From an uncultured Patescibacteria group bacterium (GTDB taxonomy: Bacteria > Patescibacteriota > Microgenomatia > UBA10105 > UBA927), in contig CAKZSU010000003.1 of NCBI GenBank assembly GCA_937921305.1, forward strand, positions 180,599-223,647: a DNA stretch of 43,049 bases, given 5' to 3'. Within the stretch, counting starts at the first letter, position 1; each line of letters begins with the position of its first letter. Positions 7,052 through 43,049 of this stretch are shown here, piece after piece. Under the pieces are notes generated by a model. It saw nothing but the letters and a program-made list of their open reading frames with translations. It did not search any database and was not told where the DNA came from. Position numbers and translations under genes: made by a program.

Positions 7052-7606
7052 TCAAACTAATGAGAGAAGTTTTACTGTTTTTAATTTTCTTTCCGTGATG
7101 GATTCGACAAATCGATGAATCGACGATTCATGAACATAATGCGATTCGGGGAGAAATCCTAACAGTCGAAGGATATGCAAAGCGAATTCATAAATCTCTT
7201 TCTGCAAATCAATTACAGATGATTGCATTGATACTGTTTGAAGCGATCGGATAAACCGATCATAGACATATTCATGACTCTGACGATCTGGAAGAAGGTA
7301 ATCAAGGAGCTCGCACGCGTAATACGCAAAACTTGCCCGTGTCAAATCTCGTCGAAATGACTCAAACTGCGCAAGAGAAAATACTTCGGTGATATGATCC
7401 CATGTTTTTCCTTGATAAAAAACAAACCTAGCCTGCGTAAAAACTTCCAAGTGTCCAGCTCTTCTGCTTGACACTTTGCGAACGCCTTTTGCGATGGCAG
7501 TTATCTTTCCATATCCTCTTGTGAATATGGTTATCACTCGATCGCTCTCTTGATAATTTATTCTTTTGAGAATAACGCCTTCTGCGGTGTACAGCTTTTT
7601 TTTCAT
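7052..7606 (-). CDS. recO: DNA repair protein RecO, short form
   Basis: YTAEGVILKRINYQESDRVITIFTRGYGKITAIAKGVRKVSSRRAGHLEVF is the RecO N-terminal OB-fold signature; 184 aa, with no C-terminal Cys motif. Confidence 0.87.
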   Translation of the reverse strand: MKKKLYTAEGVILKRINYQESDRVITIFTRGYGKITAIAKGVRKVSSRRAGHLEVFTQARFVFYQGKTWDHITEVFSLAQFESFRRDLTRASFAYYACELLDYLLPDRQSHEYVYDRFIRSLQTVSMQSSVIDLQKEIYEFALHILRLLGFLPESHYVHESSIHRFVESITERKLKTVKLLSLV

Positions 7607-7611
7607 GAAAT

Positions 7612-9642
7612 TTACAGCGAAATGGTTACTTCTGTGTCGGTATTTAAGATGAAAGACCGTATCTTTCCATTCACTCTCAATTCAAATTCTTGTCCAGACG
7701 TTCCCGGTTGCTTTTGAATTAAAACATTATATGTTCGATCAACTCGGATTGGCGACGTATATGTTACCTCCAATCTGGCAATTCCTTTTGGATTTACGAT
7801 AAGAAATCCTTCAAATACTGTTTTTCCCAGCGATTCATACACGATCATGTCTTGCGGTTTGCTCGACGATGGAGATATTGTCCCTTTGCTTTCAAGCAAT
7901 GTGCTTCCTTTTGGCACATAAACCCGAACCCAATTTCGAAGCGGCGCGTTTAAACAAAGCCCTCCTCGTTCCAGATTGCAATCAGACCCTGGAAATGGGT
8001 TTTTATAATCAACCACAAGTTTTGTTGTAATAGTTCCATCGGAATTAATGGTAATATCTTTCGTGAATGATTCTCTTACAAACATGTTCGCTTTCTGTCC
8101 AGCCATGTTGGCGTGATTCACATGAAGATAATCCCATTCCTCTCCTTCTTGATATTTCAAAACAGAGGCGGTTTCCTCTTTTGTCATGATTCTTCCCGCC
8201 ATATTGAACGCTTCCACGGCTTTTTGCGTTTCGAGATCTTTAAAATACGCCATAATATGCTTCTCATAAATTTGGTTTAATCCGACTTGAAACAATTGTC
8301 CCCAATACTTTGACGGAGACGTTCCTAACGCCATTTGCATCATGGTCTGCATCAACACACCAATAATATCTTTTCTATCTGTTCGAATATAATTAACGGG
8401 ACGAGTAGCATAATCTTCCAATTCATAGACCGCTTTTGGACAATCGCATCGCGGATCGTTTTCAACGCTAAATTCTCTACCCATAATATATAACGGCCCA
8501 AGAATTCGTAAAAACTCCACAAACGCATGTGTGTCGATTGTAATAATTCCGTCAATTCGCTCCTTTCCAGCGACAGTTTCATACATCTCTTCAAACTGTT
8601 GCATGGAAACTTTCAAATCAGGAGACAAATTGCTATCGCGAATATGCCACTCATTCACGCTTTTGTGATAGGTAAGAATTTCTTTCGGCGCCGGAAAACG
8701 TTTTCGCTTCGCTTCGTCAAGTTTGTAAATATCATCAGATCGCTCTAAAATTGCTTTCCCTCGAACAAAACGAAATTGTGCGTATGCGGTCAAAAATCCG
8801 CCAGTTGGACGAAGCTCTTTATCGTTTTGAAATAAAATAAGATATCGCTTCTCTATCGGTTCGCCAAGAATTTCAGGAAGTTTTGTTAATAACGGCTGGG
8901 CGTTAATAAACAAATTCGCGGCATTTTCAATTGTTTCCATCACATTCATAAGCTGACTACGAATTTTTATCCCTCGAAATTCTTCTGGGTATCGCATAGG
9001 ATCAATCTGCTCTAATTCTTTTCGCAACACATCAATGTCTTGCGCCATTGCGTTGATTTGTGGAATAAGCGCAGTCATAGTTTTTACCGCTATCTGAATT
9101 CGTTCATCCGCAGATCCAGCACTAAATGAACTGTTTCCCTTTAGTCCCAGCAGATCTGCATTTGGTTCAATAGCTGCAATTGCCTTGTCAGCAGCATCCA
9201 ATCCGGCAAAAGCGGCGTTGAACGCGTGCTCTCCATCCTTGACATATACCCCGATGTATGGAGCGGATTGTAACCAAAGCAATTCTTGATATGTTTGTCT
9301 CGCTTGCATCAATTCAGTTCTCAATGTTTGCAATTTCTCTTTTGTTAGATCAATATTTTGTGTTTTTATCGCATCCATCAAAGCTCTTCCGGTATCCATA
9401 ATTGTCTGGCCTTGAACAATAAGCGTTCTCGCCGGTGTTCCAACGCGAGCGTAAAGAAATGCACCCAATCCTCCAATAAGAAGAACAAGAACAAGAAGAA
9501 ATGCAAACAGCATCAAAAGGATCTTTTTAATAGGCGACCGTTTTTTTGTATTTTCTGTTGTTCCACGAGGAGCTTCCGTTGTTAAATCGATTTTTTTCAA
9601 TTCATTGGCATCTTTTATGATGTTATGTTTGTTCTGAACCAT
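7612..9642 (-). CDS. DUF4012 domain-containing membrane-anchored protein
   Basis: N-terminal TM; EPIEKRYLILFQNDKELRPTGGFLTAYAQFRFVRGK is the DUF4012 hallmark; next to a priming sugar transferase. Confidence 0.83.
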   Translation of the reverse strand: MVQNKHNIIKDANELKKIDLTTEAPRGTTENTKKRSPIKKILLMLFAFLLVLVLLIGGLGAFLYARVGTPARTLIVQGQTIMDTGRALMDAIKTQNIDLTKEKLQTLRTELMQARQTYQELLWLQSAPYIGVYVKDGEHAFNAAFAGLDAADKAIAAIEPNADLLGLKGNSSFSAGSADERIQIAVKTMTALIPQINAMAQDIDVLRKELEQIDPMRYPEEFRGIKIRSQLMNVMETIENAANLFINAQPLLTKLPEILGEPIEKRYLILFQNDKELRPTGGFLTAYAQFRFVRGKAILERSDDIYKLDEAKRKRFPAPKEILTYHKSVNEWHIRDSNLSPDLKVSMQQFEEMYETVAGKERIDGIITIDTHAFVEFLRILGPLYIMGREFSVENDPRCDCPKAVYELEDYATRPVNYIRTDRKDIIGVLMQTMMQMALGTSPSKYWGQLFQVGLNQIYEKHIMAYFKDLETQKAVEAFNMAGRIMTKEETASVLKYQEGEEWDYLHVNHANMAGQKANMFVRESFTKDITINSDGTITTKLVVDYKNPFPGSDCNLERGGLCLNAPLRNWVRVYVPKGSTLLESKGTISPSSSKPQDMIVYESLGKTVFEGFLIVNPKGIARLEVTYTSPIRVDRTYNVLIQKQPGTSGQEFELRVNGKIRSFILNTDTEVTISL

Positions 9643-9678
9643 ACTATCTATTCTTCAAAAATTTTCTTCTGTTGTCAA

Positions 9679-10314
9679 TCAAACCGCGCCTTTTCCAGTA
9701 ATCATTGCCCATGGACTTTTCAGCAGGATGATGAGATCAAAGAGGATAGACTGTCGTTGCACATATTCCGCGTCCATCTGAATTCGCTTATCGAAATTCA
9801 CTTGACTTCTTCCTGATATCTGCCAATACCCTGTCATGCCTGGCTTTGCCGACAACACGACTTTTACCAACTCTCGCGTTTGCGGAAATTTTTGTTGTTG
9901 CTCTTCAAGCTCGTCTGGATAATACGGACGAGGTCCAACTAAACTCATTTCCCCTTTGATCACGTTGATAAGCTGAGGAATTTCATCAATCGAGTGTTTT
10001 CTAATGAATTTTCCCACCCTCGTCACTCGAGGATCATTAACCAATTTATAACTATTGTGTTTATATTCGTGATATAATTTCGCCATTTTTGGATCTTTTC
10101 GCAGTATTTCATGCGCGTTCACAAACATTGACCGAAACTTAAAGAGCTTAAATAACTTCCCATCTTTTCCAACACGCTTTGGTGTATCCGCAAAAATCGG
10201 ACCGGGTGTATCCAGTACAATCGCAATCGCGGTAATCACACAAATAGGAAAGAAAAGAATCATAAGAATAATGCTTCCGACGATGTCGATAAGACGCTTG
10301 ACAATCGCGTACAT
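9679..10314 (-). CDS. Bacterial sugar transferase (undecaprenyl-phosphate sugar phosphotransferase catalytic domain)
   Basis: KRLIDIVGS, GPIFADTPKRVGKDGKLFKLFKFRSM, RKHSIDEIPQLINVIKGEMSLVGPRP, KPGMTGYWQISGRS. Confidence 0.93.
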   Translation of the reverse strand: MYAIVKRLIDIVGSIILMILFFPICVITAIAIVLDTPGPIFADTPKRVGKDGKLFKLFKFRSMFVNAHEILRKDPKMAKLYHEYKHNSYKLVNDPRVTRVGKFIRKHSIDEIPQLINVIKGEMSLVGPRPYYPDELEEQQQKFPQTRELVKVVLSAKPGMTGYWQISGRSQVNFDKRIQMDAEYVQRQSILFDLIILLKSPWAMITGKGAV

Positions 10315-10327
10315 AAAGAAGAATATG

Positions 10328-11410
10328 TTATGTTAATTTATCGTATTCTGTTCCAGATAAGCTTTCCACTAATTTTTTGATTTTTGGAACAGAAGATTTT
10401 TTGCATACCATAACGACATCAGATGTATTAACGACCAAGAAATCATCAAGATCAATTGTAACAACCATTTGATCAGTAAAGTTATAGACCAACGAATCTC
10501 TTGTGTCGGTAAGCAGCACTTTTCCTCGCGTCACATTTTGTTCTTGCGTCTCTTGCAAAGCTTCTTTAAGCGCTTCCCACGCGCCAATATCGCTCCATTC
10601 GATATTTTCAGAAATAACTAATCCATCCGCTGTTGACAATTTTTCTAAAATAGCATTATCAAAATGAATTTTTTCAACTTTTGGATAAATCGAGTGAAAC
10701 ACATCTTGAAATTCAGCGGTTTGCCACGCGTGGACGATTCGAGACAAATCGGCGTGAAGATTTGGCTCGTACTGTTGATATAATCCCCATAGAAACGACG
10801 GTGTTGTCACAAAATACCCGAGATTCCAAGCATGTTTTCCGCTTTTATAGTACTCTCCCGCCGTATTTTTATCAGGTCTGTACTGAAAATTCATTAATTG
10901 ATGCAATGATACGCCATCCTCGACGGAAACCACTTTTCCATACTCGATCCATCCCAAATTTTCACTGGGAAATCGAGGCTTTTGCGCGATAAAAACGATT
11001 TTTTTTGGATGTTGCTGAACAAATCCTGCCGCAATGAACAATAACCGACGAAACAATACTTCGTTTTTCACCAAATGATCGCTCCAGAGAATCGCCATTG
11101 GCTCATCGGAAAACTCTCTATTTAATATACCCGCCATCAATCCAACCGCCGGTCCGACATCTCGCATAGATGGTTCCCCTATCACATGATGAGGATCAAT
11201 AGTAGGCAATTGTTCTAATACAATAGGAACATACGGCTCGCTCGTCGCTATATAGATATCATTGATAGAAAAGTCAGGAAGCAGTCGGTCAACCGCCAAT
11301 TGAAGCGTTGACTTTTCTCCAACGATTTTTTCAAATTGTTTTGGCGATTTTTTCCTTGATAACGGCCAGAGTCGTGTTCCTTGTCCTCCGGCAAAAACAA
11401 CAATTTTCAT
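10328..11410 (-). CDS. manC: Mannose-1-phosphate guanylyltransferase (ManC type)
   Basis: MKIVVFAGGQGTRLWPLSRKKSPKQF, GEPSMRDVGPAVGLM, DHLVKNEVLFRRLL, SDIGAWEALKEAL. Start placed at the ATGA overlap at 11407-11410. Confidence 0.87.
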   Translation of the reverse strand: MKIVVFAGGQGTRLWPLSRKKSPKQFEKIVGEKSTLQLAVDRLLPDFSINDIYIATSEPYVPIVLEQLPTIDPHHVIGEPSMRDVGPAVGLMAGILNREFSDEPMAILWSDHLVKNEVLFRRLLFIAAGFVQQHPKKIVFIAQKPRFPSENLGWIEYGKVVSVEDGVSLHQLMNFQYRPDKNTAGEYYKSGKHAWNLGYFVTTPSFLWGLYQQYEPNLHADLSRIVHAWQTAEFQDVFHSIYPKVEKIHFDNAILEKLSTADGLVISENIEWSDIGAWEALKEALQETQEQNVTRGKVLLTDTRDSLVYNFTDQMVVTIDLDDFLVVNTSDVVMVCKKSSVPKIKKLVESLSGTEYDKLT

Positions 11411-12510
11411 AGACGAAATGACTTTTTTGTTTTGCTTATGAACGAACGCATGTTTTGTTTGAACGCGTGTTTCGAAAATTTTAACGCTCTTGATCGACAT
11501 TCAGTCGGATCAAATCGTTTATTTTGAAACATACGCACTGCTTCTATGATACTCTTTTCTGTCTGATCGTCAAATAAAACTCCTGTCTTTTCCGTTACGA
11601 TATCGGCGATACCGCTTCTTCTATACGCTATGACTGGTTTTCCGACAGATTGCGCCTCCGCCGCAGCAATTCCAAAATCTTCTTCTCCCGCAAACACAAA
11701 CGCATCGCAATGCTGATAATACTCAAGAAGTTTCTCATCTGTCAATTTCTCATGAATAAATGTAATCGTTGAACCAGCCAATTTATGAAGATACGACGCT
11801 TCTGATCCGTTCCCAATAACAACAAGTGGCAACCGCATGCGATTAAACGCGCGAATCAAGAGATCAATTCGCTTATATGGCACAAGACGAGCAACGACAA
11901 GAAAATATTCTTGAGGAAGATATCGGGGACGAATCGAATTTGAAGGAACAAATGTTTCAGTGTCCACCGGCGGATGAATAATTGCCGAGACTTCTCGATG
12001 ATAATACTGTTCTATTCGCTCCTTCACCAAGGAAGAAATAGCGATATACACATCGGGACGAGAAGAAAAATATAAATCCCACCTTTTTAAGGTGCTCCCA
12101 AATAAAGATAAAAATGCAGAAAAAATTGGATTGCGTTTATATTCATAATATCCGCTCCAAAGATATCGCGTTGGCGTCAAACAATAGCAAATATGAATGG
12201 CTTCTGGTTTTGTCAAAATATCTTTTGCTTCAGCCGAAGTAACAGAAAGAACAACATCGTATCCATCAAAATTAAACGATTCAAACGCAAACGGCGCGAG
12301 CCATGAATATAATTCATGCCGACGCGACGCAAAAGGAAATGCGTTTGCAAATGACGGATAAACCGTAAAATCATCCGCCCACGAAGCGCCTTGTTTGTCA
12401 AAAAATGCGGTATACAACGGCGCGTTCGGCCATATTTCATGAAGCGCCAATAAAACGCGCTCCGCTCCTCCAAACTTATTCACACGATCATACACAAGCG
12501 CAAGATTCAT
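11407..12510 (-). CDS. GT4-family glycosyltransferase (WbaZ-like mannosyltransferase family)
   Basis: VYDRVNKFGGAERVLLALHEIWPNAPLYTAFFD, HICYCLTPTRYLWSGYYEYKRNP, FVFAGEEDFGIAAAEAQSVGKPVIAYRRSG. Confidence 0.87.
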   Translation of the reverse strand: MNLALVYDRVNKFGGAERVLLALHEIWPNAPLYTAFFDKQGASWADDFTVYPSFANAFPFASRRHELYSWLAPFAFESFNFDGYDVVLSVTSAEAKDILTKPEAIHICYCLTPTRYLWSGYYEYKRNPIFSAFLSLFGSTLKRWDLYFSSRPDVYIAISSLVKERIEQYYHREVSAIIHPPVDTETFVPSNSIRPRYLPQEYFLVVARLVPYKRIDLLIRAFNRMRLPLVVIGNGSEASYLHKLAGSTITFIHEKLTDEKLLEYYQHCDAFVFAGEEDFGIAAAEAQSVGKPVIAYRRSGIADIVTEKTGVLFDDQTEKSIIEAVRMFQNKRFDPTECRSRALKFSKHAFKQNMRSFISKTKKSFRL

Positions 12511-33798: not shown

Positions 33799-34452
33799 TT
33801 ACTTCTTCGCAATAATTAATGTTGTTGAAACAAATCCTTGCCAAGGAACATATCGAGGAATCATCATGCCCCAAAGAATAGGAGGAACAGAAAGAGGAAA
33901 TGTTTTCACATTTAAAAATCCTTCTGTCATAAACAAAGTCTTCCAAAAAAAAGGAAGATGAACATTTACATGTGTTGGGTCAGTCATATTCTTTGCATAT
34001 GGATATGGCGTGCTTCCAATGAAATATCCACCGCGTTTTAAACGTTTAAAAATATTCTTCACAGCAATACCAACATCTGGAACATGTTCAAGGACTTCAA
34101 ATGCAACAACAAAATCATATGTTTCCTTATAAGGAAAAGTTTCCATGATATTGTAAAAAAAGAAATCTATATGTGGAGAAATTTTTTTTGCTTTCTCGAG
34201 TATTTTTCGAGAAATATCTGTTCCCACTGGCATGGAGCCTTCTTCATACAATAAAGAAACAAACGCTCCGATACCGCATCCTATCTCTAACACCTTAGTA
34301 TTTTTAAATTCAAATTGCTGATTCTTTTTTATGTATGCAAGCCAATTCTTGTACCATCGTTTATACTTTGCTATATCTTCATTGCTCCAATCATCCTTCT
34401 TTGGTTTATATCGTGTATAAAAATATGAATCCCAGTTAATATTATTGCTCAT
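33799..34452 (-). CDS. Class I SAM-dependent methyltransferase
   Basis: KVLEIGCGIGAFVSLLYEEGSMPVGTDISRKILEKAKK, YDFVVAFEVLEHVPDVGIAVKNIFKRLKRGGYFIGSTP. Confidence 0.88.
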   Translation of the reverse strand: MSNNINWDSYFYTRYKPKKDDWSNEDIAKYKRWYKNWLAYIKKNQQFEFKNTKVLEIGCGIGAFVSLLYEEGSMPVGTDISRKILEKAKKISPHIDFFFYNIMETFPYKETYDFVVAFEVLEHVPDVGIAVKNIFKRLKRGGYFIGSTPYPYAKNMTDPTHVNVHLPFFWKTLFMTEGFLNVKTFPLSVPPILWGMMIPRYVPWQGFVSTTLIIAKK

Positions 34453-34464
34453 ATATAAATTGTC

Positions 34465-35757
34465 TCATCTCATGTCCTGAATAAATTTTTGAAATTGTTT
34501 TTGTATATATAAAATCATTTCTTCAGTTATCCCAGGATGCACGCCTATCCAAAATCCTCGTTCCATAATAATGTTTGTATTTAACAAATCAGATGCGATA
34601 CGAATGTCTTTTCTTGACGCATATGCGGGATGTTTTAATAAATTACCTGCGAATAAACTCCTTGTCCCTATGTTCTTCTCTTCAAGAAACATCACAATAT
34701 CTCTTTTCGCAAATGGAGCACTATCTCTTATCACCATCATAAATCCAAACCAACTGGGATCAGCGTTCTTCTCTGATTCGCTGAATAAAAAATACTTTTC
34801 ATATGGAGACAATAATTCTTTTAATCGTTGAAAATTCTCTCTTCTTTTTTTTATAAACAATGGCAATTTCTTTAGTTGAGCAAGCCCTATCGCCGCTTGC
34901 ATATCCGTAAGTTTCAAATTATATCCAATTTGGGAATAGATGTATTTATGGTCATATCCAAACGGAAGTTTGCCAAGTTTCCATCCAAAACGTTTTCCGC
35001 ATGTGTTATCATGACCAGTTTTGCACCAACAATCCCTTCCCCAATCGCGAAATTGTCGTATGGATCGATAAATAAGCGAGTTATTTGTAACAATAGCTCC
35101 TCCCTCTCCCATCGTTATTTGATGCGCTGGATAAAATGAATAGGTTGCAACATCGCCAAATGTTCCCACAGGTTTCCCATCATACATAGCTCCGAGCGCA
35201 TCGCAACAATCTTCGATAAACCACAAATTATATTCTTTCACCACTTTCATAATTTCTTTTATTAGGAAAGGATTTCCCAAAGCGTGAGCAACCATAATCG
35301 CCTTTGTTTTCGATGAAACTGCTTTTTTCATTTCATCGATTAATATGTTTTTTGTTTTTAAATCAACATCAACAAATACAGGAATAAGATTATTTTGAAT
35401 AATAGGATTAACTGTGGTGGGAAATCCGCAAGCAACAGTAATGACTTCATCTCCCGGTTTTAATGCTCGTTCTCCAAAAACTGACGATGTTAATGTAGTA
35501 ATCGCAAGCAAATTCGCCGAAGATCCTGAATTTACAAGCGTAACATATCTACAACCGCAAACCTTAGCAAATTCCTTTTCAAATTTCTGCGCAAATCTTC
35601 CCTCTGTCCACCATCCATCAAGCACCGCTTGCATGCCATAAACAAGTTCTTCCTCGTCAAACACTTTTTGCGTCGGCGGAATATATGTTTTCCCCGGAAT
35701 AAATAAATCTTTTTTAATGGAGTCAATTGCGAGATCTCTTAAAATCTTGCTCATCAT
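34465..35757 (-). CDS. rfbH: RfbH/E1-like PLP- and [2Fe-2S]-dependent NDP-4-keto-6-deoxyhexose 3-dehydrase
   Basis: SFYPAHQITMGEGGAIVT (His replaces Lys); RDWGRDCWCKTGHDNTCGKRFGWKLGKLPFGYDHKYIYSQIGYNLKLTDMQAAIGLAQLKKL; exact C-X57-C-X-C-X7-C spacing counted by hand. Confidence 0.88.
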   Translation of the reverse strand: MMSKILRDLAIDSIKKDLFIPGKTYIPPTQKVFDEEELVYGMQAVLDGWWTEGRFAQKFEKEFAKVCGCRYVTLVNSGSSANLLAITTLTSSVFGERALKPGDEVITVACGFPTTVNPIIQNNLIPVFVDVDLKTKNILIDEMKKAVSSKTKAIMVAHALGNPFLIKEIMKVVKEYNLWFIEDCCDALGAMYDGKPVGTFGDVATYSFYPAHQITMGEGGAIVTNNSLIYRSIRQFRDWGRDCWCKTGHDNTCGKRFGWKLGKLPFGYDHKYIYSQIGYNLKLTDMQAAIGLAQLKKLPLFIKKRRENFQRLKELLSPYEKYFLFSESEKNADPSWFGFMMVIRDSAPFAKRDIVMFLEEKNIGTRSLFAGNLLKHPAYASRKDIRIASDLLNTNIIMERGFWIGVHPGITEEMILYIQKQFQKFIQDMR

Positions 35758-36734
35758 AAATAAGTATTATTTTCTCGATACCATTCTATTGTTTTTTTCA
35801 ATCCATCGTCCAAAGATGTCTTTGAAATAAATCCTAATAATCGTTTAGCTTTTTCATTGTTGCTCTTCCTTCTTGGACTTCCGTCAGGTTTCGTAGAATC
35901 GAATTCAATACGAACACTAATACCAGATAAATTAACAATTTTACATACTAAATCTTTTATCGAGATCTCTTCATCAGAACCTAAATTTATTGGATCTGGA
36001 AAAGGATACTTTTCCACAGCAACAATCATTCCATCAACGAGATCTTCAACATAAATAAACGATCTTGATTGTTTACCACTTCCCCATACAATCAACGGAT
36101 TTTCTCCTGAAAAAATCCTTCGAATCAAAGCTGGAATAACATGTGATCGATCAGAATCAAAATGATCTCTTGGACCATATGCATTATATGGTCGAACAAT
36201 AGAAATATTCATATGAAATTCTTCAGCGTAGTATCTTCCTAAAATCTCTCCCATTCTTTTTGCCCAACCGTATCCGCCATTTGTTGGCTCTGGTTCATCT
36301 CTAAATCCTTCTTCCTCAGGTGTTGGTATTATCGCGTCATGAGGATATACGCAGGCGGAAGAAACAAGAAGAATTCGCTCCACACTTGATTTTCTCGCCG
36401 CTTCTACTATGGTCGTAAGTATTTCTAGATTCTTTCTCATAATCGATCCTTGATGGGTTCTATTGTATTCAATGCCTCCAACATGAGCCGCAAGGTTCAT
36501 TAAAATTTCTTGGCTTTTTAATGCAGAAAAGACATGCTCAAAATTATTGCAATCCCCATTGATAATTTTTACTTCTTTATAAAATTCCTTAATATTTCTC
36601 AATTTATATTCTTTCACATGATCAAGAATGGTAACATTTGCATGAAGGGAAAGAAGCTTCTCTACTAAATGACTACCAATAAATCCTAATCCTCCTGTAA
36701 CTAACACGTGCTTGTTATTCCAAAAATTTTTCAT
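35754..36734 (-). CDS. NAD-dependent epimerase/reductase SDR, GDP-L-fucose synthase/ColC-like
   Basis: HVLVTGGLGFIGSHLVEKLLSL, NLAAHVGGIEYNRTHQGSIMRKNLEILTTIVEAARKSSVERILLVSSACVYP, YGWAKRMGEI, STKPDGSPRRKSNNEKAKRLLGF. Confidence 0.75.
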   Translation of the reverse strand: MKNFWNNKHVLVTGGLGFIGSHLVEKLLSLHANVTILDHVKEYKLRNIKEFYKEVKIINGDCNNFEHVFSALKSQEILMNLAAHVGGIEYNRTHQGSIMRKNLEILTTIVEAARKSSVERILLVSSACVYPHDAIIPTPEEEGFRDEPEPTNGGYGWAKRMGEILGRYYAEEFHMNISIVRPYNAYGPRDHFDSDRSHVIPALIRRIFSGENPLIVWGSGKQSRSFIYVEDLVDGMIVAVEKYPFPDPINLGSDEEISIKDLVCKIVNLSGISVRIEFDSTKPDGSPRRKSNNEKAKRLLGFISKTSLDDGLKKTIEWYRENNTYL

Positions 36735-37903
36735 GATATAAATAAACTTTTTAATATTTGTAATTCTTTCTTTGTTAAGTCAGGATTATTGCCAAAATAA
36801 AAACCTTTTGCATGAACAAAGTTTGCATTTTTACATGTTTCATAAACATTCGGAACATACTTTTTAAAAAATGGTTGAGAAGTCATATTTCCTCCAACAA
36901 TTGGACGAATCTCAACAATTCCATAGCATCTTTTCACCAATTCATCTTTTATTTCAGTTGTTTTGCAAACCACAGGAATTGCAAAATTTGAAACTATATC
37001 CATGTGATCCCAACGAATAGGCAAATAATTTGGATGGTTATATAACATATTTGCGAAATATTTAAAGTTTTTTTGACGCTTTTCAATAATCTCTGGAAGA
37101 TATTTTATCTGAATAAGACCAAGGAAACCTGTAATTTCTGTTGGTCTAAGATTATACCCCAAATCATAAAAAGTATACCGGGAATAAAATGATGAATTTA
37201 TATGAAATTTCTTCCTTATTTGTTCTTGCTTCGCAAAATCTAAATTTCTATCCCATCCATGCGCTCGAACAATACGAATCATCGTCGCCAATTCATCATC
37301 ATCGGTTATCACCGCTCCGCCCTCTATTGTTGACATGTGATGCCCAACATAGAAAGAAAATGTCGCCGCTAACCCAAAGTTTCCTAATTTTTTCCCTTTA
37401 TATTCACTTCCTAACGACTCACAATTATCTTCAATCAATATCACATTTGCTTTCTTGCATATGCGATGAATCTGATCAATGTCATCGCAAAATCCAAGAA
37501 GGTTTGTTAGAAAAACCATTCTCAAAGGATATTTCTTTAACATTTTCTCGAGGTTTTTTGAAGAAATATTTAATGTATCAAGAGAAATATCTATTGGAAC
37601 AGGTTGCAACCCCAATTGAATAAGCGGCATGACATTGGTTGACCATGTTACTGCTGAAAATCCAACAAGATCTCCCTTTTTAATTCTATTCAAATTTAGC
37701 AATGCTTGAATAATCGCAAGATTTGCCGAACTTCCACTATTTAACAAAACACACTCTGATCTCCCTTGCCACGAAGAAAATGCTCGTTCGAATGTTTGAC
37801 ATTTTTCTCCGAAACTTAACTGTTTTGCTGCTTGGATAAACTTTATGAGCGACGATTTTGTTTTATATTCTTTATAAAATGATGATTTAATAAGTGAAAT
37901 CAT
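36731..37903 (-). CDS. ColD-like PLP-dependent sugar 3-dehydratase (DegT fold, His type)
   Basis: IEDNCESLGSEYKGKKLGNFGLAATFSFYVGHHMSTIEGGAVITDDDELATMIRIVRAHGWDRNL, EIRPIVGGNM, KGFYFGNNPDL. His occupies the catalytic Lys position. Confidence 0.82.
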   Translation of the reverse strand: MISLIKSSFYKEYKTKSSLIKFIQAAKQLSFGEKCQTFERAFSSWQGRSECVLLNSGSSANLAIIQALLNLNRIKKGDLVGFSAVTWSTNVMPLIQLGLQPVPIDISLDTLNISSKNLEKMLKKYPLRMVFLTNLLGFCDDIDQIHRICKKANVILIEDNCESLGSEYKGKKLGNFGLAATFSFYVGHHMSTIEGGAVITDDDELATMIRIVRAHGWDRNLDFAKQEQIRKKFHINSSFYSRYTFYDLGYNLRPTEITGFLGLIQIKYLPEIIEKRQKNFKYFANMLYNHPNYLPIRWDHMDIVSNFAIPVVCKTTEIKDELVKRCYGIVEIRPIVGGNMTSQPFFKKYVPNVYETCKNANFVHAKGFYFGNNPDLTKKELQILKSLFIS

Positions 37904-38234: not shown

Positions 38235-40460
38235 TTAATAATTTCTCTTTGAACATTTATAAGAAAATAATAAGTTGATAAACATTAAAACTATTCCAAC
38301 CACAGTCAAAATTCTTCCATAAACAAAATATTTTTGAATCTCAAGTTTTATCACGCCATAAATCTCTCCTTTTTTATTTATCTTTTCAGGATGAATAATC
38401 CATCCGGTAGCATATTCGTTCACGCGAATAGGAGGAAGTTTTTCTCCATCAAGATACAAATTCCAGTGTTTATTAAAATATTCAAGAAGAGCAAGAATAA
38501 AAGGATGATCATGATCTTCATTTATTGTGAAAGCATAAACATACTCAAATGGAGATTTCTTATAAAAAGACAAATTAGGAATATTAGAGTTCAATTGATA
38601 ACAAAGCGCATAACTTTCACAAAATCGCTTATCTATAGATGCAGACCGAAAAGATTGACTATACAATAATTCATTCTTATCAGAATAAATAATATCAGGA
38701 ATATATAACGCTGGACGTATAATATCTTTCGAAATTTCGTAAAGTTCAAAAAAACCTTCTTGATATATTTTCCTCGTAGGGAAAAAAGATAACAATTCAT
38801 TATATGTGTCATTACTATTGATTAATCGAATATCATTATAAAGCATGTTTCCTAAAAAATTTTTAAAAATTCTTTGATCAGAATTTTTTAATACATATTT
38901 AATATTATGAAGCGAAAAAATCTGAAGTATTTTTTGTTTTTCTTCTTGGTTTAATCCATATAAAAGATCTTTCTCATATACTCCAAAATCCCAAAAACCG
39001 GCAAAATCTTTTCTCCCTGTTAAGGGTTGAATTGTTGATATTCCAACGTATGCTCCAGAAGAATTTCCATAAAAAATTTGAAAATATGGAAAAGTTAATG
39101 GAATCAATATTATATTTGAATCATCTTTTAAACTCTTTACTGCATTGATCGAATTAATCCAACCAGGAGGAATATCAAATACAACTGGAATATTCGTGCT
39201 TGGATGAATTGCGTTTCTATAAATATCTCCCTTTAGAAATGGAAGTATTCTTAAAAGAATGCTGAAAATGATTACAAAACCTACAAAAAAAGAAAAATTT
39301 TTTTTATTCTTAAATAGTAAGTAAAAAGATGTGGCAAACAGCAACGTGTAAAAAAATGAAAAGGCACCATGCCATTTCTCATCAAATGATCGGAACATCA
39401 TAAATCCAGGAATTGAAAATAACATTCTGTATATTTTGATACCAATAATCGTAATATTTGCAGAGATTAAAAATAACGTTATGAGAAAAAAAATACCAAT
39501 CAATGAAAGAAGTTTTGATTTTTGTTTTATAAATCCCAATAATCCAATCAAGGGAATGAGAAAAACAAATATCGTTCTTTGTAATGAATATTCTGGTTGA
39601 AACAACTGCATACTTATTTTCCCAAGAGATTGTCTGTTGTGATCAAAATAAGAAAGTCCGGCATTCTTTTTTGTTTCCTCAGAGAAAATGTAATTATTTA
39701 TACTTGAATCTTTATCGAAAATTGTTGCTATCATGGGAACAAGATGAAACCCATGAAGTAATACAAATAGCGCAAATATTCCTACAAAAGATCTCCAAGG
39801 AATAATGATATTTCTAATGTATCGACAATATAAAAAAAGAAAAGCTAACGCAAATGGATAGAATGAAAAAATTTGAGGAGAAGCTGAAAAGCTAAAATTT
39901 TGAGATTGAAAAAATGTGATCAATAACAAGAAAAAAGCAAAAATAAATTTATTTGTCGAAATAAATTTAAGGAAAAGATATAATATGGCTATATTTAAAA
40001 AAACATAATGATGCGTCTCTAACGATTTGACCCATCCATATTTTGTGATAAATCCAACATATACCAAACCAGAAATAACTCCAACAAATTGAATAAAAGT
40101 ATCCTTTTTATTTCTATAAATAGAAAGAATTTCTATGACAAATAGGTACATAAAAAGAAAACTTAATAAGAGCTTTATTCCATTTTCAAATGCAATTAAA
40201 TAGGTCATCGAAGGAATAAAAACTTTTAATACGGAAAGACCAAAAACATAAGGAAGAATTCCATACATATGAGATCCGAATCCTTGAGGAACTTGATGAA
40301 GGAACATCTGTTTAAAAACTGAATCAGGATCAAAAAAATATAATCGACCGCTATCCCCGCCTAAATCCACAAACCCATCTGGCAACCAAAAAAAGGGGAG
40401 AACAAAAAAAATAGTAGCAATGAATGCTACTAAAAAATAATGCACGGAGATTAATTTCAT
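38235..40460 (-). CDS. Giant polytopic membrane protein, GT-C/YfhO-like
   Basis: 741 aa; TM1 then LPDGFVDLGGDSGRLYFFDPD, FMMFRSFDEKWHGAFSFFYTLLFATSFYLLF, C-terminal FNKHWNLYLDGEKLPPIRVNEYATGWIIHPEK plus last TM. Start chosen at the ATGA overlap at 40457-40460. Confidence 0.68.
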   Translation of the reverse strand: MKLISVHYFLVAFIATIFFVLPFFWLPDGFVDLGGDSGRLYFFDPDSVFKQMFLHQVPQGFGSHMYGILPYVFGLSVLKVFIPSMTYLIAFENGIKLLLSFLFMYLFVIEILSIYRNKKDTFIQFVGVISGLVYVGFITKYGWVKSLETHHYVFLNIAILYLFLKFISTNKFIFAFFLLLITFFQSQNFSFSASPQIFSFYPFALAFLFLYCRYIRNIIIPWRSFVGIFALFVLLHGFHLVPMIATIFDKDSSINNYIFSEETKKNAGLSYFDHNRQSLGKISMQLFQPEYSLQRTIFVFLIPLIGLLGFIKQKSKLLSLIGIFFLITLFLISANITIIGIKIYRMLFSIPGFMMFRSFDEKWHGAFSFFYTLLFATSFYLLFKNKKNFSFFVGFVIIFSILLRILPFLKGDIYRNAIHPSTNIPVVFDIPPGWINSINAVKSLKDDSNIILIPLTFPYFQIFYGNSSGAYVGISTIQPLTGRKDFAGFWDFGVYEKDLLYGLNQEEKQKILQIFSLHNIKYVLKNSDQRIFKNFLGNMLYNDIRLINSNDTYNELLSFFPTRKIYQEGFFELYEISKDIIRPALYIPDIIYSDKNELLYSQSFRSASIDKRFCESYALCYQLNSNIPNLSFYKKSPFEYVYAFTINEDHDHPFILALLEYFNKHWNLYLDGEKLPPIRVNEYATGWIIHPEKINKKGEIYGVIKLEIQKYFVYGRILTVVGIVLMFINLLFSYKCSKRNY

Positions 40461-41571
40461 ACACATGCATTAACACAGTTTATAATATAGTCAATTTCCT
40501 CATCAGTAAGCTTTGCATAGAATGGAAGCGTTATTGCTGAATTTCCTATTCTCTCTGCTTCTGGAAACATTCCCTTCTTAAAATTATATTTATTTCTATA
40601 ATAAGACATATAATGAATTGGTCTATAGTTTACTGCAACACCTATTCCTAAATCTTGGAGCTTTTCAATAATAGAATCTCTATTTTCAACCCATATCGTG
40701 TAAAGATGCATAGCATGCTTTACTTTTGGTAAAATTTTTGGTTTTTTTATACGGTTATTTTTCTTAAACCCATCATCGAATCTTTCCCATATAATCTTTT
40801 TTTTAGACAGAATATTTTCAATCCGATCAAGCTGATGAATCAAAAGAGCCGCCTGAATATTTGTCATGTTTGTTTTATAACCGAGAAACTCCATGTCATA
40901 ATGTTCATATCTTTTTGTATATCGATCAGCGGCATTTTTACTCATTCCATGCAATCTTGCCTTCTTGAACCATTCATACGCCTCTATTGAATGGCATGTT
41001 ATTGCGCCGCCCTCACCTGATGTAATATTCTTTGTCGCATAAAAACTGAAACATGCAACATCTCCAAGCTGACCAGGCTTAATTCCTTCTCGTTCACCTT
41101 CAATGCAATGAGCGCAATCTTCTATAACTTTTAGATTATATTTATCAGCTATTCTTCGAATTTTCTTCATATCGCACATATGCCCATACAAATGAACAAC
41201 AACAATTGCTTTTGTTTTTGATGTTATTTTTCCTTCTATTAATGATGCATCAATATTTCCAGTAGAAGATTCAACATCAACAAAAACTGGCGTACCGCCA
41301 CAATGCTCTATAACATTAGTCGTAGCAATGAAAGATAACGGAGTGGTAATAACTTCATCGCCACGCTGTATATTAAAGTACTTTAACGCCAAAAAAGAGC
41401 ATCGGTGCAACTGTTAACTCCAACAACATACTCATTGCCAGTATATTGAGAAAAAGCTTTTTCAAATCTTGATACAACTTCTCCCGTCGTCAAAAAAAGA
41501 GAATGAAGAACATTCATGCATTCTTGTCTATCAATATCTTCTAGATTGTGTTTATAAAAATCAATTTTCAT
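40457..41571 (-). pseudogene. DegT/DnrJ/EryC1/StrS aminotransferase (Lys type) split by a single-base frameshift at 41391-41396
   Basis: Track ORFs 41383..41571 and 40457..41410 are two frames of one protein: ...YVVGVNSCTDALF | LALKYFNIQRGDEVITTPLSFIATTNVIEHCGGTPVFVDVE...EDCAHCIEGEREGIKPGQLGDVACFSFYATKNITSGEGGAI. Could be a sequencing error rather than a true pseudogene. Confidence 0.82.
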
Positions 41572-42511
41572 AAAATCTATACTCCTTGCTTTGTTCTATA
41601 ATTCTTTTGATTCCATCTTCTATGGAAAACATGGGATTGTAATTAAGAATTTGTCTTGCCTTTCTAATATCTTGAGGACCTCGAAATACTTGTTGTTTAT
41701 CAGGATCGCGAATTTCATATGTAAAATGAGGAAAATGTTCCTTAACTATTTCAGCAAATTCTATTGTAGATCGAGATTCTCCTCTTGAAATATTAAATGT
41801 TTGAAAATTGGCTTTATCTTCAACAATTACTCTTAAAAAACCATCTGCGACATCATCTATAAAAGAAAAATCTAATGTCTCCCCTCTAACAATCCATGCA
41901 GATTTACGTAAAAATGCTGCATCCAGAAGCAATTGTGTAACTCTATTTGCACAATCAGTAAATCCATATACTGATGTTGGTCGAACTATAACCCATTTTT
42001 TCTGAGAAAGCTTCACAAAGAATTCTCCTGAAGCTTTTGAAGCGCCATAAATATTAATAGGATTAAGAATAGCTTCTTCTTTTTGTGGTATCTGATGAAA
42101 ATGACCATAGGCCATACTTGAAGATGCGTATACAATCTTTTCAGCTTTTGATTTTTCAAACACATCTAAAACATTTAACGTCCCGAAAAGATTAATAGAT
42201 ATCATTTCATGATTAAATTTTTCTAAAACTCTTGCCATTGGTAATCCCGCAAGATGAACAATAATATCTGGGTTGAAATCATTGATCACATTTAAAAGAG
42301 AATCTTTATCTCTTATATCGCCTGTATAATTTTTTGATGGCTGATAATAAATTTTTTTCCTTAAAAAAAGACACTTCTGATAATACTGAGGATTATCTAT
42401 AAAATTCAAACATGCATCAAAAGAAGCCGTCTCGTAACCTTGTTTATTCAATAAATGTATAAGAGCAGATCCTATAAATCCTGCTCCCCCTGTAATAAAT
42501 ATCTTTTTCAT
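41561..42511 (-). CDS. NAD-dependent epimerase/dehydratase (extended SDR)
   Basis: KKIFITGGAGFIGSALIHLLNKQGYETASFDAC, IIVHLAGLPMARVLEKFN, YASSSMAYGHFHQIPQ, YGASKASGEFF, RPTSVYGF. Confidence 0.85.
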   Translation of the reverse strand: MKKIFITGGAGFIGSALIHLLNKQGYETASFDACLNFIDNPQYYQKCLFLRKKIYYQPSKNYTGDIRDKDSLLNVINDFNPDIIVHLAGLPMARVLEKFNHEMISINLFGTLNVLDVFEKSKAEKIVYASSSMAYGHFHQIPQKEEAILNPINIYGASKASGEFFVKLSQKKWVIVRPTSVYGFTDCANRVTQLLLDAAFLRKSAWIVRGETLDFSFIDDVADGFLRVIVEDKANFQTFNISRGESRSTIEFAEIVKEHFPHFTYEIRDPDKQQVFRGPQDIRKARQILNYNPMFSIEDGIKRIIEQSKEYRFYEN

Positions 42512-42517
42512 GATAGT

Positions 42518-43049
42518 CTATACATGCTTATGATATACCAACTCAACATTAGATAATAAAAAATGATTTCTTTGAAAAAATCTATTTGCTTGTATATTTT
42601 CTCCTGCAGTAGCAACCCAAACTCTTTTTGGATTATTAGCATAAAGATATTTCATTGCTTCAAATAATAACAATTTTCCAAATCCTCTTCCGCGAAATTG
42701 TGGAAGAATACCAAAAAGATCAATCCTCGCATCCGTGCGATCATCACTTAAACGTGTTGTACATATCCCAATAGGATTATCTTCAAAAAAAATAAAAAAA
42801 GACTTTGAAGCCAATCCATTCCATAGACTATTTTCTATCCAACGAACATATATTGCTTGACTTTTATCTTTCGGAATTTTTTCATCTTTATAGTACCTAT
42901 TCACCTGCCCTATTAAATTTGCAAACGATTGTATTGAATCCTGAGAAATCGAAGTTTCTTTTGTAAATTCTTTAACAATGCAAGACGGATGTGCATCTAC
43001 AATCTTTACTTCATGTAAAAAATCAATCCCCCTATGTACATAGGTATTT
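42518..43049 (-). CDS. GNAT-family N-acetyltransferase, partial at the right edge
   Basis: ARIDLFGILPQFRGRGFGKLLLFEAMKYLYANNPKRVWVATAGENIQANRFFQRNHF. Hand translation upstream of the track start (GTG at 42904) stays open to 43049 (NTYVHRGIDFLHEVKIVDAHPSCIVKEFTKETSISQDSIQSFANLIGQVNRYYKDEK). Confidence 0.82.
   Translation of the reverse strand, partial: NTYVHRGIDFLHEVKIVDAHPSCIVKEFTKETSISQDSIQSFANLIGQVNRYYKDEKIPKDKSQAIYVRWIENSLWNGLASKSFFIFFEDNPIGICTTRLSDDRTDARIDLFGILPQFRGRGFGKLLLFEAMKYLYANNPKRVWVATAGENIQANRFFQRNHFLLSNVELVYHKHV

Follow-up and report, generated by a model that had tools for sequence, protein, structure and literature searches.

A ColD-like and an RfbH-type sugar 3-dehydratase in one Patescibacterial gene trio: probable parts of two nucleotide-sugar pathways

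The stretch of DNA analysed here (the window; 43,049 nucleotides, G000:C3:180599-223647, reaching the end of its contig) comes from an uncultured Patescibacteria bacterium, whose genome assembly comprises 970 kb in 10 contigs and is 97% complete. The window carries a trio of genes encoding, in the direction of transcription, a ColD-like dehydratase dependent on pyridoxal or pyridoxamine 5'-phosphate (PLP/PMP), a short-chain dehydrogenase/reductase (SDR) resembling GDP-L-fucose synthase (GFS) and ColC, and an RfbH/E1-type dehydratase (Table 1). The trio probably brings together components of two distinct nucleotide-sugar pathways, a colitose-type GDP route and a Salmonella/Yersinia-type CDP route, leading to two 3,6-dideoxyhexose-type sugars, a reading to which we assign a probability of roughly two thirds (0.68). 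An earlier note on this DNA had left the choice between two 3,6-dideoxyhexoses and one multiply deoxygenated sugar; the former is the best-supported reading, given the separate clades, motifs, partner genes and cassettes of the two PLP enzymes. The host is a tiny-genomed Gottesmanbacteria-like bacterium, and the nearest named relatives of the ColD-like gene include Candidatus Gottesmanbacteria and further Patescibacteria.

With 656 bits, the RfbH protein clears the cut-off of the curated model NF011936 (423); it scores 518 bits against the E1 structure 3bcx and is 55% identical to the Yersinia E1. His220 of E1, which replaces the lysine of aminotransferases, and Cys193/251/253/261 are all kept; the catalytic histidine and the four [2Fe-2S] cysteines are likewise present in all 18 RfbH proteins that were aligned. 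The ColD-like protein finds its best PDB match in ColD (2gms, 224 bits) and is 35% identical to the E. coli enzyme. It retains the catalytic His188, conserved in 78 of 78 ColD-like proteins, and has Arg, Leu and Ile at the positions of Cys251, Cys253 and Cys261 of E1. Moreover, 18 positions that are conserved in at least 90% of these 78 proteins are common to the window's enzyme and ColD and are not shared by RfbH. In a quick tree, RfbH groups with E1, and the ColD-like protein and E. coli ColD are grouped apart from it (SH-aLRT 100). For the SDR, the best PDB match is GFS (165 bits); the protein scores 200 bits against the curated GFS model, below the cut-off of 500, and the aligned Ser, Tyr and Lys and the Cys/His epimerase pair are all five conserved with E. 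coli GFS. Because all three genes are intact and the catalytic residues are kept, the trio does not consist of chance reading frames. The positions, the strand and the two ATGA overlaps given in the earlier note are borne out on the sequence, and so are its three identities, with RfbH over the NF011936 cut-off and ColD and GFS as the best solved relatives of the other two.

The earlier note had also considered that the two PLP enzymes might be simple duplicates, or that one of them might be dead. Both indeed belong to the common DegT/DnrJ family and share 28% identity; however, they fall into different functional clades and have different cofactor motifs, and, as far as can be judged from the sequence, neither appears dead, since both catalytic histidines are kept in full-length frames. 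This explanation was therefore rejected as the least probable of those considered.

The hydroxyl at C3 is the target of both ColD and E1 (PMC8987622), and their consecutive action on one sugar is therefore unlikely. A single multiply deoxygenated hexose made by all three enzymes would suit the coordinated expression that the gene overlaps suggest. However, the second enzyme would be left without a C3 hydroxyl, as both act at C3 (PMC8987622), and ColD-SDR and RfbH form separate cassettes in relatives. Furthermore, a trideoxy route needs a 2,3-dehydratase; none was noticed among the open reading frames of the window, and no genome-wide search was made. The single sugar, which was the other option of the earlier note, is thus very improbable and was rejected on the C3 chemistry and the separable cassettes. 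Of the window's 30 close gene pairs that share a strand, 9 overlap by exactly four bases, so the ATGA overlaps reflect compact packing and are nothing special; for this reason, the coupling was dropped as special evidence. The trio is presumably co-transcribed.

The distribution of the genes was surveyed in 380 genomes of the phylum, 24 genomes of the same family and 80 named ColD-like loci. RfbH in other Patescibacteria usually occurs with RfbF and RfbG. A search for these two partners, which the earlier note had advised, recovered like genes on contig C2 (C2:14318-16156) in the order RfbG-RfbF-TktC-TktN-RmlD-like, TktN and TktC being the chains of a split transketolase, and without RfbH. Orthologous cassettes with an RfbH that is 61-68% identical to that of the window are found in three members of the family: in G383 (RfbF-RfbG-DegT-x-TktN-TktC-RfbH), in G389 (TktN-TktC-RfbH, with RfbF-RfbG nearby) and in G391, in which RfbF-RfbG, an RmlD-like gene, TktN-TktC, RfbH, one further gene, ColD and the SDR lie nearly all on one strand. 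The RfbH absent from the C2 cassette thus seems to be that of the window, beside ColD-SDR. RfbH and RfbF plus RfbG occur together in five of six family genomes (p = 0.0008, relatedness uncorrected).

The earlier note rightly stated that ColD and RfbH normally belong to different pathways, yet the two are also found close together in other genomes: in G391 (locus L133), in G389 (L163) and, about 6 kb apart, in G383 (L131). In the Patescibacterium locus L167, GMD-ColD-ColC, where GMD is GDP-mannose 4,6-dehydratase, is directly followed by RfbF-RfbG-SDR-YerE-like-RfbH, so that two complete pathways stand in one cluster. As to the frequency of the trio, which the earlier note had proposed to count, some relatives have it as well, but the phylum as a whole shows no enrichment, ColD and RfbH being found together in 1 of 380 genomes against 0.63 expected; within the family, four genomes have both against 2.25 expected (p = 0.11).

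The ColD-like proteins stand clearly apart as a family, with identities of 51-64% outside the genome of the window, and this family is present in 16 of the 380 phylum genomes and in nine of the 24 family genomes. Genomes with ColD often carry a gmd-colD-colC cassette. Of the 80 named loci, 30 have GMD at a distance of up to about 8 kb, 22 have GMD together with a GFS/ColC-like SDR, and 4 have RfbH nearby; five neighbouring dehydratases that were tested (L067, L069, L071, L072 and L073) pass the GMD cut-off. Counting ColD-bearing genomes alone, GMD was found genome-wide in 13 of 15 sampled (11 over the cut-off and the others at 403 and 377 bits). In the colitose pathway, a 4,6-dehydratase and ColD are followed by reduction and epimerisation (PMC8987622). 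The loci with GMD, ColD and a GFS/ColC-like SDR match this gene set, and ColD-SDR therefore belongs with the GMD pathway. A colitose-type cassette also occurs outside the Patescibacteria, on a linear plasmid of Streptomyces sp. HUAS 15-9 (L242, 6905-10176), where gmd is followed by a ColD-like gene and a GDP-L-fucose synthase gene; this ColD-like protein is 49% identical to that of the window and is annotated as an aminotransferase. A more distant ColD-like enzyme (33%) with the stretch FGHQLSTIEGG is encoded in G299 (L074, 3929-12635) with a GFS-like SDR, TktN and TktC, and with a GHMP-type kinase and a nucleotidyltransferase that are heptose-pathway-like, judged by sequence start only. A literature search of an open library returned no paper on colitose in Patescibacteria.

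Several findings weigh against two separate pathways of this kind. No canonical GMD was found in the window or in the whole 97%-complete genome, the contig ending just upstream of the trio, and GMD exceeds the cut-off in 0 of the 24 family genomes. The SDR sits in a clade of its own, separate from the GFS-type ColC found in gmd-colD-colC clusters, and an NAD-type Asp ends its beta-strand 2. The 11 members of this clade adjoin or lie near ColD-like genes, and GMD lies within 8 kb in 0 of them. ColD is present in five of six family genomes having RfbF and RfbG (p = 0.015), which would fit a CDP-linked ColD. On the side of RfbH, the C2 partners score slightly below their cut-offs (C2:15335-16156, best family TIGR02623 for RfbF, 287 bits with a cut-off of 300; C2:14318-15331, best family TIGR02622 for RfbG, 211 bits with a cut-off of 278), and a dedicated E3 reductase with ferredoxin and FAD/NAD domains was not found in the genome, in which neither of two PF00175 matches is near RfbH. 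One of these matches is an FNR-like protein of 239 amino acids encoded beside thioredoxin-reductase-like and glutamate-dehydrogenase-like genes. The only PDB match of C2:14318-15331 is CDP-glucose 4,6-dehydratase.

The earlier note had seen no GMD in the window, and the search that it recommended extends this to the whole genome, in which the only SDR closest to the gmd model reaches 190 bits (cut-off 415). This protein (C6:54479-55438) was ruled out as a canonical GMD, as it scores 294 bits against the structure 2pk3 of RMD (GDP-6-deoxy-D-lyxo-4-hexulose reductase), its closest solved relative, and 170 bits against GMD. An equally strong match is found in 20 of the 24 family genomes, whether ColD is present or not, and an RMD-like SDR in all nine with ColD. 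The gene (L024, 6480-7439) lies in an operon with genes for RmlA, RmlB, RmlD and UDP-glucose dehydrogenase, and the protein is 65% similar to one in G007, the other ColD-bearing lineage without a canonical GMD. Upstream in the same route, the ManC-type protein of the window scores 215 bits against TIGR01479 over its nucleotidyltransferase part (cut-off 373); that it supplies GDP-mannose, as the earlier note supposed, is plausible, although the genome as a whole lacks the GMD step. The gap may be explained in any of three ways: the RMD-like SDR doubles as GMD, the assemblies lack gmd, or the substrate of ColD-SDR has changed.

In the last case, ColD and the SDR would have switched to CDP- or dTDP-4-keto-6-deoxyglucose, with ColD as a glutamate-driven counterpart of RfbH that is free of Fe-S. 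The lack of a canonical GMD in the 24 family genomes, the company of RfbF and RfbG in five of six, the arrangement in G391, which has ColD-SDR in the same cluster as RfbF-RfbG-RfbH, and the SDR's own clade, with an NAD-type Asp and no GMD nearby, are in line with a switch. In SDRs, an Asp where beta-strand 2 ends suggests NAD(H) over NADP(H). However, four family genomes with ColD, including the single-contig G199, are without RfbF and RfbG, and the positions that distinguish ColD and ColD-like proteins from RfbH are kept. Moreover, the nearest sister SDRs (L177 and L178) still stand in GMD-ColD-SDR order; a GDP-sugar SDR, the RMD-like one, accompanies every ColD in the family. A switched substrate is thus unlikely, although less so than a single sugar or duplicated enzymes.

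If the trio serves two pathways, the substrates, products and nucleotide specificities that we infer are as follows. The ColD-like enzyme would act with PMP and glutamate on a 4-keto-6-deoxyhexose, most probably GDP-4-keto-6-deoxymannose, and take off its C3 hydroxyl; the SDR would then epimerise C5 and reduce C4, so that GDP-L-colitose or a closely related compound results. RfbF and RfbG from C2 would make CDP-4-keto-6-deoxyglucose. Using PMP and a [2Fe-2S] cluster supplied by a cellular reductase, RfbH would remove the C3 hydroxyl of this sugar to give CDP-4-keto-3,6-dideoxyglucose. The split transketolase may branch this intermediate at C4, and the RmlD-like SDR encoded with RfbF and RfbG would then reduce it. 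Both sugars would be incorporated into a surface glycan.

Compared with the GDP-L-colitose pathway (gmd, colD, colC; E. coli, Yersinia, Salmonella), the window's ColD-like and SDR genes adjoin in the gmd-colD-colC order of other Patescibacteria and keep the catalytic residues. They differ in the lack of a canonical GMD in genome and family, in the distance of ColD from the E. coli enzyme, in an SDR that is outside the GFS clade and has the NAD-type Asp, and in the appended RfbH. With the CDP-3,6-dideoxyhexose pathway (rfbF, rfbG, rfbH; abequose, paratose, tyvelose, ascarylose), the genome shares RfbF- and RfbG-like genes and an RfbH close to the Yersinia E1 with all diagnostic residues; in contrast to it, RfbH is away from RfbF and RfbG and beside ColD-SDR, no dedicated E3 was found, and RfbF and RfbG are beside a split transketolase. 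In yersiniose-type clusters (rfbF, rfbG, rfbH, yerE, yerF), an enzyme dependent on thiamine diphosphate (ThDP) and a reductase are likewise encoded with CDP-3,6-dideoxysugar genes, and the Patescibacterial L167 has a YerE-like enzyme between RfbG and RfbH, whereas in the window genome and its relatives a split transketolase is in the YerE position.

The CDP-3,6-dideoxysugar cassette with the split transketolase is a more interesting lead than the trio itself. In some CDP cassettes, the split transketolase occupies the place of YerE (L113, L235 and L236 as against L110 and L167). It lies beside RfbF and RfbG, in part also RfbH, in Patescibacteria and Methylovirgula, at L025 (G000:C2:7000-24000) (7319-11726) and at L113, L233, L235, L236, L239 and L240. 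The order rfbF-rfbG-SDR-rfbH-TktN-TktC is found in Methylovirgula pHY1, and in Paenibacillus cellulosilyticus an SDR-TktN fusion and then TktC are encoded beside rfbF-rfbG. In the split transketolases, the DGE..EG stretch that binds ThDP is kept, and so is the C-terminal chain's Glu-Gln motif. They are candidate branching enzymes for CDP-deoxysugars and could instead be metabolic transketolases. As ketone-accepting sugar-branching enzymes, split transketolases are described in a 2025 review as putative and uncharacterised, and from Streptomycetes only (PMC12247030); the literature search returned no paper on CDP-sugar transketolase cassettes. The YerE-like ThDP enzymes of L167 (12938-14719; 359 bits against 5ahk) and of L110 (7662-9425, in an RfbF-RfbG-RfbH cluster, assigned from its position and the start of its sequence alone) suggest yersiniose-type branched sugars in Patescibacteria. 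We tentatively propose, at somewhat less than even odds, that RfbH feeds a new branched pathway, in which C4 branching by the split transketolase (hydroxyacetyl transfer) replaces YerE and is followed by RmlD-like reduction, alongside a colitose-type pathway without a canonical GMD.

Table 1 Features of the window
Feature	Coordinates	Strand	Basis
ColD-like PLP/PMP-dependent sugar 3-dehydratase, 390 aa, without Fe-S motif	36731..37903	-	PDB match, tree, residues
ATGA overlap, ColD-like stop / SDR start	36731..36734	-	sequence
GFS/ColC-like SDR, 326 aa, presumed C5-epimerase/C4-reductase	35754..36734	-	PDB match, aligned catalytic residues
ATGA overlap, SDR stop / RfbH start	35754..35757	-	sequence
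RfbH/E1-type PMP and [2Fe-2S] CDP-4-keto-6-deoxyglucose 3-dehydratase, 430 aa	34465..35757	-	NF011936, residues
S-adenosylmethionine-dependent methyltransferase, next gene downstream, same direction; sugar link by position alone	33799..34452	-	
ManC-type mannose-1-phosphate guanylyltransferase domain, start maybe 11410	10328..11500	-	TIGR01479

Elsewhere in the window, a PseC-like aminotransferase gene (40457-41530, minus strand) is broken by a reading-frame change near 41392 into two PF01041 pieces, which is either a sequencing error or a broken gene. Near it are genes for an SDR (41561-42511) and a GNAT acetyltransferase (42518-42904).

Taken as two probable pathways, the trio indicates that very small bacterial genomes can encode two chemically different 3-deoxysugar routes, and that mixed operons of this kind may be read as neighbouring pathways, not as one exotic pathway. 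It also raises two testable questions, namely what takes the place of GMD in supplying ColD in this lineage and whether split transketolases branch CDP-3,6-dideoxysugars.

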